Positions 45,224 through 48,004 of a stretch of DNA of 64,000 nucleotides are shown in pieces. The notes beneath the pieces were generated by a model that was given only the letters and a program-made list of their open reading frames with translations, was not told where the DNA came from and did not search any database. Source of the DNA: Jannaschia pohangensis (GTDB lineage: Bacteria; Pseudomonadota; Alphaproteobacteria; Rhodobacterales; Rhodobacteraceae); NCBI RefSeq assembly GCF_900113875.1, contig NZ_FORA01000001.1:992001-1056000 (forward strand), written 5' to 3'. Every line of letters starts with the position of its first letter. Position 1 is the first letter of the stretch. Position numbers and translations under genes: made by a program.

Positions 45224-46414
45224 TCACCTGATGGCTTGCGCGCGCGAAGGCAAGACCAGGATGGCGGCAACCAATGTGCCGCCAAGGCCCGACCAGAACA
45301 GAACCTTGGGCAGATCGACCAGAGCGGCCCCCCACCCCAGAAGGCCGGACCCGAAGGCGACCGCGCCGATCCCCACCACGACCCAGAGCGACATGACCCG
45401 GCCGCGCAGATCGTCCGGCAGCACTTCCTGCATCGCGGCCTGGAGGCTGACGCCGCAGAAGGTGGACGCAAAGCCGAGGACCGCCGTCCAGCACAGGGCC
45501 GCGATCCAGCCCGAGGACAGCCCAAGCGCCGCCAGCGCCGCGATGCCCGCGACCAGGATGACGCGCGTCAGGGTGGGAATGCCGCCCTGCCCCGCGCCCG
45601 CCGCCTTGGCCAGTGCAGCGACCAGGGCCCCGCCGCCCGCCGTCGCCGTCAGCAGGCCCAGACCCTCTGCCCCGCGCCCGTGCACGCCTTCGGCCATCAC
45701 CGGCAACAGCTCCAGATAGCCGCGCACCAGGATCGCCATCACCGCCGTCAGCCCCATGGCCTGCCGCGCCATGGGCGTGCTCAGGATATAGGAGACGCCT
45801 TGACGAATGCCGCCCAGGATCGAGGTGCGCGCCGACCCCGGCAAGGCCCGAGGATCCATCCAGCGCACGGCAAAGAGCATCGGCAGATAGAGCAGTGCCG
45901 AAAGCCACAGCGTCGCGACCGCCCCGACCGAGGCAAGGGCCAGACCGGTCAGCACCGGGGCAATCATCCGCGCCAGATTGAAATTCAGCGCGGAAAGGGC
46001 GACGACGTTTGGAACATCCGAGTTCGGCACAAGGCGCGGGCCGAGCGACATGCGCACCGGATGATGCGCCGCCGTGACCAGACCGATGGCCAGCGACAGC
46101 ACGATCAATGCGCCTTTGCCGAGGCCCGGGCCACCCGCGATCAAGGCCGCGACCGCCAGCAGTACCGCCATCGTGGCCGAGGTCGAGAAAATGGCCCGGC
46201 GGATATCGGCGCGGTCCACCAGAACCCCGAACACGGGGCCCGCGAAAATCATCGGCGCCAGCCCCAGGGCGGCGATCAACCCCACGAAGGCCGGCGAGGC
46301 CGATACCTCCCAGGCGAGCCACCCAAGGGTGACCCGTTGCGCCCAGAGTGCCTGCACAAGTGGGACCGCCGCAAAGAAGTAGGCACGGAAGCCGATATGG
46401 GAGAGCGCGCTCAT
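45224..46414 (-). CDS. MFS transporter (EntS-like)
   Basis: A 396-residue major facilitator with about twelve membrane helices. The N-terminal FRAYFFAAVPLVQALWAQ and the loop GVLVDRADIRRAIFS are typical, and the layout resembles the EntS/MFS_3 exporters. The substrate is unknown. Confidence 0.87.
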   Translation of the reverse strand: MSALSHIGFRAYFFAAVPLVQALWAQRVTLGWLAWEVSASPAFVGLIAALGLAPMIFAGPVFGVLVDRADIRRAIFSTSATMAVLLAVAALIAGGPGLGKGALIVLSLAIGLVTAAHHPVRMSLGPRLVPNSDVPNVVALSALNFNLARMIAPVLTGLALASVGAVATLWLSALLYLPMLFAVRWMDPRALPGSARTSILGGIRQGVSYILSTPMARQAMGLTAVMAILVRGYLELLPVMAEGVHGRGAEGLGLLTATAGGGALVAALAKAAGAGQGGIPTLTRVILVAGIAALAALGLSSGWIAALCWTAVLGFASTFCGVSLQAAMQEVLPDDLRGRVMSLWVVVGIGAVAFGSGLLGWGAALVDLPKVLFWSGLGGTLVAAILVLPSRAQAIR

Positions 46415-46549
46415 GCTGTCATGAAACCATTACAAAAATGCCCCGAAAAAGAGCGACTTGACCCAAAATTCGCCGCTTTCAACCCGTGGAGCCGTTTCAA
46501 CCCCCCTGGCCATGCAAATGCTGCATAGCGGCATTGAATGTCCCGGGGA

Positions 46550-46578
46550 TTGTGCGGGTGCAGCATCGTTGTCATCTT
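46550..46578 (+). promoter_or_regulatory. candidate heat-shock-type (RpoH) promoter of the DUF1127/sRNA unit
   Basis: TTGTGC at 46550-46555 and CATCTT at 46573-46578 are separated by 17 bases. The pair resembles the RpoHI/RpoHII-type promoters of Rhodobacter (TTG box, CCATnTT-like -10), which drive the homologous locus there. It lies 81 bp before the DUF1127 start. Confidence 0.4.
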
Positions 46579-46658
46579 CCTCTCAACGAAACACGGCGTC
46601 GAACGGCAATGGGGCCGGGACGCATAGGGCCAGAAGGCCCGCATCAAAGGAAATGACA

Positions 46659-46880
46659 ATGGCTTACACAACCTATGGCAATTCGGCCGCAGCCTCCACC
46701 TCCCTGCGGGACCGCATCGCGGCACGCTTTGACGCAATCCGCGAGGCAGCAGCCAAGCGCCGGATCTACCGCACCACCCTGAGCGAACTTTCCGCTCTGT
46801 CCAACCGCGATCTCAACGACCTCGGCCTGAGCCGGTCGATGATCCGTTCGGTCGCCCTGGAAGCCGCGTACGGCAAGTAA
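46659..46880 (+). CDS. DUF1127 protein, CcaF1-like
   Basis: A 73-residue protein. AAAGGA seven bases before the ATG at 46659 sets the start. The DUF1127 signature is ELSALSNRDLNDLGLSRSMI near the C-terminus, after an Arg/Ala-rich helix. In Rhodobacter sphaeroides the DUF1127 protein RSP_6037 (CcaF1, 71 residues) is cotranscribed with the CcsR1-4 sRNAs, binds RNA and affects sRNA processing. The same arrangement here makes this its likely counterpart. Confidence 0.88.
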   Translation: MAYTTYGNSAAASTSLRDRIAARFDAIREAAAKRRIYRTTLSELSALSNRDLNDLGLSRSMIRSVALEAAYGK

Positions 46881-46892
46881 GGAATTCCCGTC

Positions 46893-47260
46893 CTGCCATC
46901 TCCTCCCTTTGGCAGTAGGGTAAATGCGACGGGAGCCTCCTCCTCCCTTGGTTGTCGTCGCAACTTTTTCCCGGCCCTCCTCCTCCCTTTGGGCCCGGGG
47001 ATCGCCTGACCCTCTCCTCCTCCCCTGAGGGTCGGGCACCGTGAAGGACCGGTCGCGCTCTCCTCCTCCCTTGGGCGCGACCGGGGCCCTTCGACAAATC
47101 TCGGGAACCGTTCGGCCTTTCCGGCGTTCCCAACTGAATTCGATGCGTGGCCCTCCTCCCGATCAGCCACGCTCGGACCGGAAGACCGCCCTCCTCCCTC
47201 CCTTGGGTCGGCCTTCCAAAGACAGAGACGGCGGTGCCCATCCTCCCTTGGGCACCGCCG
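46893..47260 (+). ncRNA. tandem CcsR-like sRNA array (CCTCCTCCC-loop hairpins)
   Basis: Eight hairpins carry a pyrimidine loop with CCTCCTCCC or a near match: 46893-46915, 46926-46961, 46970-47000, 47005-47036, 47049-47084, 47145-47172, 47180-47217 and the terminator 47228-47260. Six loops hold the exact nonamer. Stems are unrelated to each other (for example CCGGTCGCGC/GCGCGACCGG and GCGTGGC/GCCACGC), so structure is kept while sequence is not. A ninth hairpin without the motif lies at 47103-47131. CcsR RNAs have two such hairpins each, so this equals four CcsR units. Confidence 0.85.
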
Positions 47261-47266
47261 TTTTTT
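47228..47266 (+). terminator. Rho-independent terminator of the CcsR-like array
   Basis: ACGGCGGTGCCC pairs perfectly with GGGCACCGCCGT, with loop ATCCTCCCTT, and is followed by a run of six T. The loop itself keeps the CCTCCC motif, so the terminator doubles as the last sRNA hairpin. Confidence 0.92.
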
Positions 47267-47315
47267 GTTTGAGCATCGAAAATCATCCTCGCGCCGCAAC
47301 GGACCGCAAGGCGGT

Positions 47316-47987
47316 TCAGCGCCCAGTGCGCTCGCGCAGGACCGCTCCAACCCGCCGCAGTCCGAGTTCGACGCCACTGTCCACGTTCACGCGCTGCGCG
47401 ATGAAGATGATGAGATCACTTCCAACGGATACAAACGAAACTTCGGTCAGGATGGGAGAGGTCGTCACGTCGGGCATGACGAAGGCCGTGCTCATGATCA
47501 CCCCGCGCGTCCCGGCTGCATTCGCCGTGACATCCACACTCTGTGCGACCTCGGCGCCGGATCGCGTCAAAAGGAAATGAAACACTGGCCTCAGGACCAG
47601 GGCGTCGGTCAGGCGGATGTCCCGGCCATCGCGGCTGGCTCCGGCGGCGTCGACCGAAAGGTCGAACAAGGCCGATGCCCGCGCGTCGAGATCGGCAGGG
47701 TCGGTGAAATCCGTCTGCATCGCAACGGCGAGGATTTCCTGATAGACTTCACTCGCCTGCTCCCAAGGCTCTACACGCGCCGTTTCAATCACCAGAACAT
47801 GGGGCGGCTGACCACTGTCGCGCGCCTTGACGAAATGCCCATCCGGAACCGGCAGGGTATGTGTCCGGTGCCCAGATCTGATCTCGGATGTCTGTTGCGC
47901 AAGGGCGGGCACGGCCGCCGACGTCAGCATCAGACAACAGAAATACCTTGAATGTATCCGCGTCTCTTTCCGCTGCGCCCCGCACAT
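47316..47987 (-). CDS. exported protein, unknown
   Basis: A 223-residue protein with a probable signal peptide (YFCCLMLTSAAVPALAQ, cleavage after about residue 31). The mature part is a mixed alpha/beta protein with no recognised domain; VLIIETARVEP-like strands and FIAQRVNVDSGVELGLRRVG near the end suggest a stable fold. It converges on the sRNA array terminator and lies 17 bp upstream of the 3' end of uvrD-side sequence. Confidence 0.6.
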   Translation of the reverse strand: MCGAQRKETRIHSRYFCCLMLTSAAVPALAQQTSEIRSGHRTHTLPVPDGHFVKARDSGQPPHVLVIETARVEPWEQASEVYQEILAVAMQTDFTDPADLDARASALFDLSVDAAGASRDGRDIRLTDALVLRPVFHFLLTRSGAEVAQSVDVTANAAGTRGVIMSTAFVMPDVTTSPILTEVSFVSVGSDLIIFIAQRVNVDSGVELGLRRVGAVLRERTGR

Positions 47988-48004
47988 CGGACTTGGTCCG
48001 GTGC

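Follow-up and report, generated by a model that had tools for sequence, protein, structure and literature searches.

The window, that is, the whole stretch of 64,000 nucleotides of Jannaschia pohangensis analysed here, carries on its forward strand a gene for a 73-amino-acid DUF1127 protein (46659..46880; PF06568, E 2.8e-12), an orthologue of CcaF1, followed by eight hairpins with CCTCC-type loops in tandem (46893-47264). As the preliminary description had proposed, the DUF1127 gene lies ahead of the hairpins: the array starts 12 nt past its stop codon and runs to a terminator. Six of the loops contain CCTCCTCCC exactly, and two come near it, namely those of the first hairpin (TCTCCTCCC) and the last (ATCCTCCC). 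The hairpins, all on the forward strand, are H1 (46893..46915, loop TCTCCTCCCTT), H2 (46925..46962, loop TCCTCCTCCCTT), H3 (46968..47001, loop TCCTCCTCCCTTT), H4 (47004..47037, loop TCCTCCTCCCCT), H5 (47046..47088, loop TCCTCCTCCCTT), H6 (47139..47177, loop CCTCCTCCCGATCA), H7 (47180..47217, loop TCCTCCCTCCCTT) and H8, an intrinsic terminator which together with its T run occupies 47225..47266 (hairpin proper 47225-47264, loop TCCTCCCT). A further hairpin, Hx, without the motif, stands between H5 and H6 (47103..47131, forward strand). The strong terminator with the motif in its loop had also been described beforehand; being the last motif hairpin, it is itself one of the eight, and the count of eight includes it.

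Both strands of the 64 kb window together hold seven exact matches to CCTCCTCCC, six of them inside the array, against a mean of 0.93 in dinucleotide shuffles. Shuffling of 46881-47268 with dinucleotides preserved gave 0.20 motif hairpins on average (maximum 2), and shuffling with the motif blocks fixed gave 2.07 (maximum 7). The earlier count of eight motif-loop hairpins, six exact and two near, holds; eight were reached in 0 of 500 shuffles under either null. The minimum free energy of the array region is −189.3, versus −144.9 (s.d. 5.7) in 100 shuffles.

Random loop motifs in close relatives would have spoken against this description. Such motifs are not random in the genus: a DUF1127 orthologue with a downstream array of four to nine motif hairpins is present in all 20 Jannaschia genomes searched, that of the window included (18 of the 20 proteins entered the genus protein alignment). 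Pairs were counted on the 13 closest arrays, the seven more divergent ones being excluded from the counts though also aligned. When the structure of the array in the window is applied to these 13 arrays, 75.5% of cells pair, and 59 of the 103 pairs are changed on both sides, versus 36.5 in shuffles. Cells with a change on both sides number 115, versus 54.3 in shuffles (0 of 500 reaching that value) and 30-54 when partners were slid by 1-3 columns. The claim that stems share no sequence while loop and fold are kept is therefore confirmed across the 13 arrays, in which stem changes are compensated and loops constant; motif-loop hairpins (CCUCCUCCC) with stems not conserved in sequence are also what defines a cuckoo RNA. 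Covarying pairs occur in H2 and H4. Support is uneven, as more than 94% of cells pair in H5 (95.6%) and the terminator (94.2%), and 38-64% in H3 (58%), H6 (57.7%), H7 (38-64%) and Hx (60-64%). The low values of these last four are perhaps in part alignment error, because single sequences there mostly form their own hairpin.

The motif-free hairpin at 47103-47131 had been presented as a unit either decayed or specialised. It is indeed there, and the first of these readings is rejected for the closest relatives, since a foldable segment occupies this place in 13 of 13 aligned arrays. This segment lacks CCTCC, CTCCC and CCTCT in 12 of the 13 (L084 has CCTCT), and GGAAC...GTTC arms are common to several of its copies. 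A more distant congener (L095) has no segment at this position, so that it is not universal. Among the nearest relatives within the genus, the ninth hairpin looks like a kept, specialised spacer.

Taken together, loops, stems and gene order support the assignment of the locus as a new member of the CcaF1-CcsR group (CIN1, cuckoo RNA), a kind of RNA family already known and common. The cuckoo RNA family and the CIN1 locus were reportedly described by Reinkensmeier and Giegerich 2015. In Rhodobacter sphaeroides, according to the parts of the sources available to us, ccaF1 and CcsR1-4 are co-transcribed from an RpoHI/RpoHII promoter and the precursor is cut by RNase E with the involvement of CcaF1 (PMC10253847; PMC8625941), PNPase degrades the CcsR products (PMC7866481), and flhR is a CcsR target, with pyruvate dehydrogenase affected as well (PMC8307010). 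The same partial sources give the names CIN1 for the ccaF1/CcsR association (PMC10253847) and cuckoo RNA for the RNA family (PMC4504443), and report two stem loops per RNA, with loops recognised as anti-Shine-Dalgarno (PMC3927594). The likeness to ccaF1 (RSP_6037)-CcsR1-4 put forward from the first is sustained by the order of a DUF1127 gene, variable-stem hairpins with CCUCCUCCC loops and a 3' terminator, to which a putative stress-type promoter may be added. The anti-Shine-Dalgarno character of the CCUCCU loops, proposed for this locus independently, is already in print for the RNA family (PMC3927594, PMC10746234, as far as their accessible text goes).

The covariance search with CcsR that had been suggested was made with Rfam (46000-48000, E-value mode), in which ar14, ar7 and CcsR1 all matched on the same strand and all below their gathering scores: 28.7, 27.1 and 19.5 bits versus 65.3 for CcsR1 (RF02791), and 49.8, the best Rfam score in the window, and 39.0 bits versus 58.8 for ar14 (RF02344). 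The locus differs from the CcsR1-4 operon in this low score (28.7 versus 65.3 bits), in its less regular pairs and in the additional hairpin without the motif that separates H5 from H6. It resembles ar14/NfeR1 of Sinorhizobium meliloti (RF02344) in its repeated CCUCCUCCC loops, but NfeR1 is a three-hairpin RNA with its own promoter, for which no mention of DUF1127 was seen in the available part of PMC10746234. With cuckoo RNA and CIN1, as known via citing papers, it shares the conserved loop motif, the unconserved stems and the DUF1127 neighbour; cuckoo RNA is described in the accessible portion of PMC4504443 as having 2-4 hairpins, whereas here there are eight in what appears to be one transcription unit, and 25 in one relative.

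Upstream of the gene, a block is strongly conserved in an alignment of 20 genus promoters, from which the likely −35 and −10 were placed. On the forward strand it comprises a conserved palindrome, U (ATGC-N7-GCAT, 46512..46526); a site of the CTGC-N3-GCAG type with one mismatch, P1 (CTGCATAGCGG, 46521..46531), which overlaps U; a likely RpoH-like −35, TTGTGC (46550..46555); a site of the GTGC-N4-GCAG type, P2 (GTGCGGGTGCAG, 46552..46563), lying over the −35 and into the spacer; and a probable −10, TCATCT (46572..46577), which is CCATCT-like in most of the genus. The TTG at −35 and a CCAT-T-like −10 are conserved in the genus, and TTG is reported as conserved at −35 of RpoHI/RpoHII promoters in the available part of PMC3441632. 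The locus start first proposed, 46550, coincides with the likely −35. Another RpoH candidate, a CTTG roughly 200 nt ahead of the start codon, was rejected as not conserved in the genus. Between promoter and gene, the 5' UTR (46580-46655) contains stretches conserved in most of the genus, TCAACGAAAC and CGGCAAT-GGG-CGG, which are perhaps a further RNA element.

Across the family, CTGC-N3/4-GCAG is found within one mismatch in 66 of 67 promoters (40 of them exact), compared with 19.6% and 1.1% of shuffled ones; these promoters, chosen for their arrays, are what deduplication by protein left of the 71 found. Reading was extended to the promoters of the ten genomes without PhaR and of 20 further genomes in which the strict paired pattern is missing (locus L128 serving for G166). 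P1 and/or P2 are present within one mismatch in all 78 PhaR-positive promoters (P1 in 74, P2 in 74), versus 96 and 68 occurrences, respectively, in 780 shuffles. At the same tolerance, U is present in 20/20 genus promoters, 77/78 PhaR-positive family promoters and 63/780 shuffles. The starts of P1 and P2, in family and genus together, are 31 bp apart in 58 promoters, 30 bp in 20, 22 bp in six and 23 bp in one (three being scattered), spacings of about three or two helical turns which set the sites upstream of and over the −35. A pairing of this kind, in which a CTGC-N3-GCAG and a GTGC-N4-GCAG site accompany an RpoH-like −35, was not found in the literature searched. The form GTGC-N4-GCAG is a consensus derived in the present analysis. 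An N4 form is reportedly a PhaR site in work on Paracoccus.

The P1 type, from which the copy in the window deviates by one mismatch, is the published site of the PHB sensor PhaR in R. sphaeroides, CTGCNNNGCAG. In the accessible part of PMC12542648, this sequence is reported as bound by PhaR, the −35 of phaP1 and of phaP2 in S. meliloti lies between two PhaR palindromes, and the S. meliloti sRNA MmgR is repressed by PhaR. With its CTGCNNNGCAG-type palindromes the promoter of the window may be of the kind of the PhaR-controlled phasin promoters and of MmgR, but PhaR control of CcaF1/CcsR was not found in the literature searched; the parts of PMC4344238 and PMC9230146 searched by term gave no such link, and the primary CcsR, CcaF1 and cuckoo papers could contain one. 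The exact CTGCNNNGCAG site occurs in 5/20 genus promoters and in 48/78 of the PhaR-positive family promoters.

PhaR is encoded in the genome of the window (PF07879 at G000:C8:37581-37763, E 1.2e-27) and in 285 of 295 family genomes. With up to three mismatches, the promoter element has 29 matches in its own genome versus one in the reversed control, the locus being the only exact one; a single-mismatch site stands before a phasin-like open reading frame about 0.7 kb from phaR (PF09361, E 1.5e-4, 22.3 bits, below the cut-off of 24.9). The paired pattern is present in 213 of 285 PhaR-positive and in 3 of 10 PhaR-less genomes, with 10 of 295 in the reversed control. Among the near-complete genomes without PhaR, DUF1127 is not matched at E 1e-6 in two, G090 and G136; in the other three (G003, G150 and G281), P1 and P2 are absent within one mismatch in 3/3 and U is kept, with three hairpins in G003, eight in G150 and none in G281. 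G150, a complete genome, is also where the single siteless promoter of the 67 comes from. In a second set (the best 80 of 119 loci, partly overlapping the first), 69 loci have at least two hairpins, and U is present in 69/69 and P1 or P2 in 63/69 of these; P1 or P2 is also present in 10 of the 11 array-less loci among these best 80, so that the sites go with the gene and not with the array as such. Both P1 and P2 are missing from the promoters of Ascidiaceihabitans sp. AH-578-E10 and ANT-1, Rhodobacteraceae UBA7436 and Silicimonas SS_bin_25.

From this pattern of sites, the chances seem to us evenly balanced that PhaR controls, throughout the family, the stress promoter from which the DUF1127-cuckoo operon is read, with accumulation of PHB triggering a burst of anti-Shine-Dalgarno RNA that would retune nitrogen and carbon genes. 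PhaR would repress the promoter until PHB accumulates and leave the DNA as PHB granules form; stress sigma factors and PHB accumulation would then jointly release the promoter, and protein and RNAs would appear together. The small number of losses weighs against this reading, as do, if truly PhaR-less, four incomplete genomes that bear sites. It is a serious though somewhat less favoured possibility that a regulator other than PhaR binds the P1 and P2 palindromes: of five incomplete genomes (71-89%) without detected PhaR, four retain P1 or P2 (G098, G166, G223 and G264, not G033), and U, which overlaps P1, survives also in genomes without phaR, so that a further protein, or more than one, probably binds this promoter. 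Control by PhaR itself is favoured over such a regulator by the identity of the P1 type with the published site (PMC12542648, from the part available), by the closest other match in the genome, which is the promoter of the phasin-like gene near phaR, and by the three near-complete PhaR-less genomes, from which P1 and P2, but not U, are missing. If the PhaR-operator reading is true, carbon storage is tied in a concrete way to a regulator that acts broadly on translation, in a family of bacteria that is common. The literature, in the parts consulted, names as inputs the RpoHI/RpoHII stress promoters and as outputs C1 metabolism and pyruvate dehydrogenase, without a matching carbon signal. U is the most conserved promoter element upstream of ccaF1, and genomes that have lost PhaR together with its sites retain it. 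Elsewhere in the genome of the window, a near-perfect ATGCTGC...GCAGCAT palindrome (L154, G000:C15:336931-336951) lies just before an open reading frame whose start resembles, by eye, that of a ParA-type ATPase.

Beyond the genus, 218 of 295 family genera (one genome each) have CcsR1-like matches with an E-value of at most 1e-5, ten of them over the gathering score, and in none of 14 control genomes; in this family-wide scan, the genome of the window itself gave no CcsR1 match at E 1e-5. A triple CCTCCTCC pattern is present in 84 of 295 genera (one genome each), for which the reversed control is uninformative as CCTCCTCC reads the same both ways; the strict, asymmetric triple pattern occurs in 3 of 387 genomes of the class, two of them in the family, with none in the reversed control among the matches listed. 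Sixty-one arrays, 59 from the family and two from one outside genome, were chosen for repeated motifs and have 2-25 hairpins (median 8), with a DUF1127 open reading frame upstream in 48 and none in 13 by regular expression. Eight hairpins are not special, because four CcsR RNAs of two hairpins each also make eight, which is the median of these arrays as well. Stem energies alternate, with autocorrelations of −0.43, +0.13, −0.25 and +0.21 at lags 1-4, compared with about −0.12 (s.d. 0.05-0.06) after shuffling; this two-hairpin period fits RNAs released as pairs, as in R. sphaeroides. The parallel first drawn with the two-hairpin CcsR RNAs is apt, since an array over the CcsR1 cut-off (L123 in G111, best unit 104.1 bits) consists of eight hairpins in four pairs. 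Through its positions, its covariation, the kept-looking motif-free hairpin and the two-hairpin period across the family, the array is a well-resolved example at the level of a genus.

The gene order, the loops and their fold, the position of each part and the promoter sites are read from the DNA itself, and we consider it very probable that, from a stress-type promoter, one transcript would be made which encodes the CcaF1-like protein and whose 3' UTR is formed by eight cuckoo-type anti-Shine-Dalgarno hairpins in tandem, to be processed and to lower translation. If R. sphaeroides is a guide, RNase E would cut the precursor in the A/U-rich linkers, the small RNA-binding protein CcaF1 contacting the RNA and affecting its maturation; the CCUCC loops of the released small RNAs would pair with GGAGG-rich, purine-rich ribosome sites and so reduce translation. 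A search for GGGAGGAG-N3-11-ATG gave 16 matches versus seven for the reversed pattern, about twice the control and a weak signal, and eight of the 14 loci listed (of 15) have an open frame of at least 60 amino acids. Seven of the predicted N-termini were searched and five match a family: P-II, glutamate synthase small subunit, IolD, Na+/H+ antiporter E and PufQ. By near-perfect complementarity, P-II, glutamate synthase small subunit, IolD and PufQ are candidate targets.

It is improbable, though worth weighing, that the array acts instead as one long decoy, with CCUCC loops that mimic the anti-Shine-Dalgarno tail of 16S rRNA and titrate in bulk either ribosome-recruiting mRNAs or some RNA-binding protein, be it CcaF1, Hfq or another, in which case the copy number of hairpins would matter more than cutting into single RNAs. 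Kept loops and free stems in arrays of 2-25 hairpins are what dosage, rather than specific targets, would lead one to expect, but CcsR1-4 of R. sphaeroides are cut into separate RNAs (PMC10253847; PMC7866481), the two-hairpin period of stem strength suggests processed pairs, and the related NfeR1 silences ntrB by pairing through its anti-Shine-Dalgarno loops (PMC10746234), each as given in the available parts of these papers. That the array is a mere structured 3' UTR stabilising the DUF1127 mRNA, with loops devoid of any role in trans, agrees with its extent from 12 nt after the stop codon through to the terminator but is very hard to credit, as a non-specific stabiliser has no need of the same unpaired CCTCC loop at eight positions genus-wide.

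Several other loci show further arrangements of these elements. In G165, an array of 25 hairpins (L012, G165:C1:334950-335467 and beyond) is organised in larger repeats of some 140 bp, each containing three hairpins, a pattern suggestive of growth by tandem duplication. In G007, some 2 kb of sequence contain four DUF1127 matches, all on one strand (C6:20599-22682), and motif hairpins follow each DUF1127 gene in the two loci read (L196 and L210), as if the gene-array unit had been duplicated whole. The genome of the window contains a second CCTCCTCC pair (L039, G000:C6:782002-782080), one of whose two motifs folds as a motif hairpin. Finally, a genome from another family of the class (G674; L114, L120 and L121) carries triple CCTCCTCCC patterns on three contigs.
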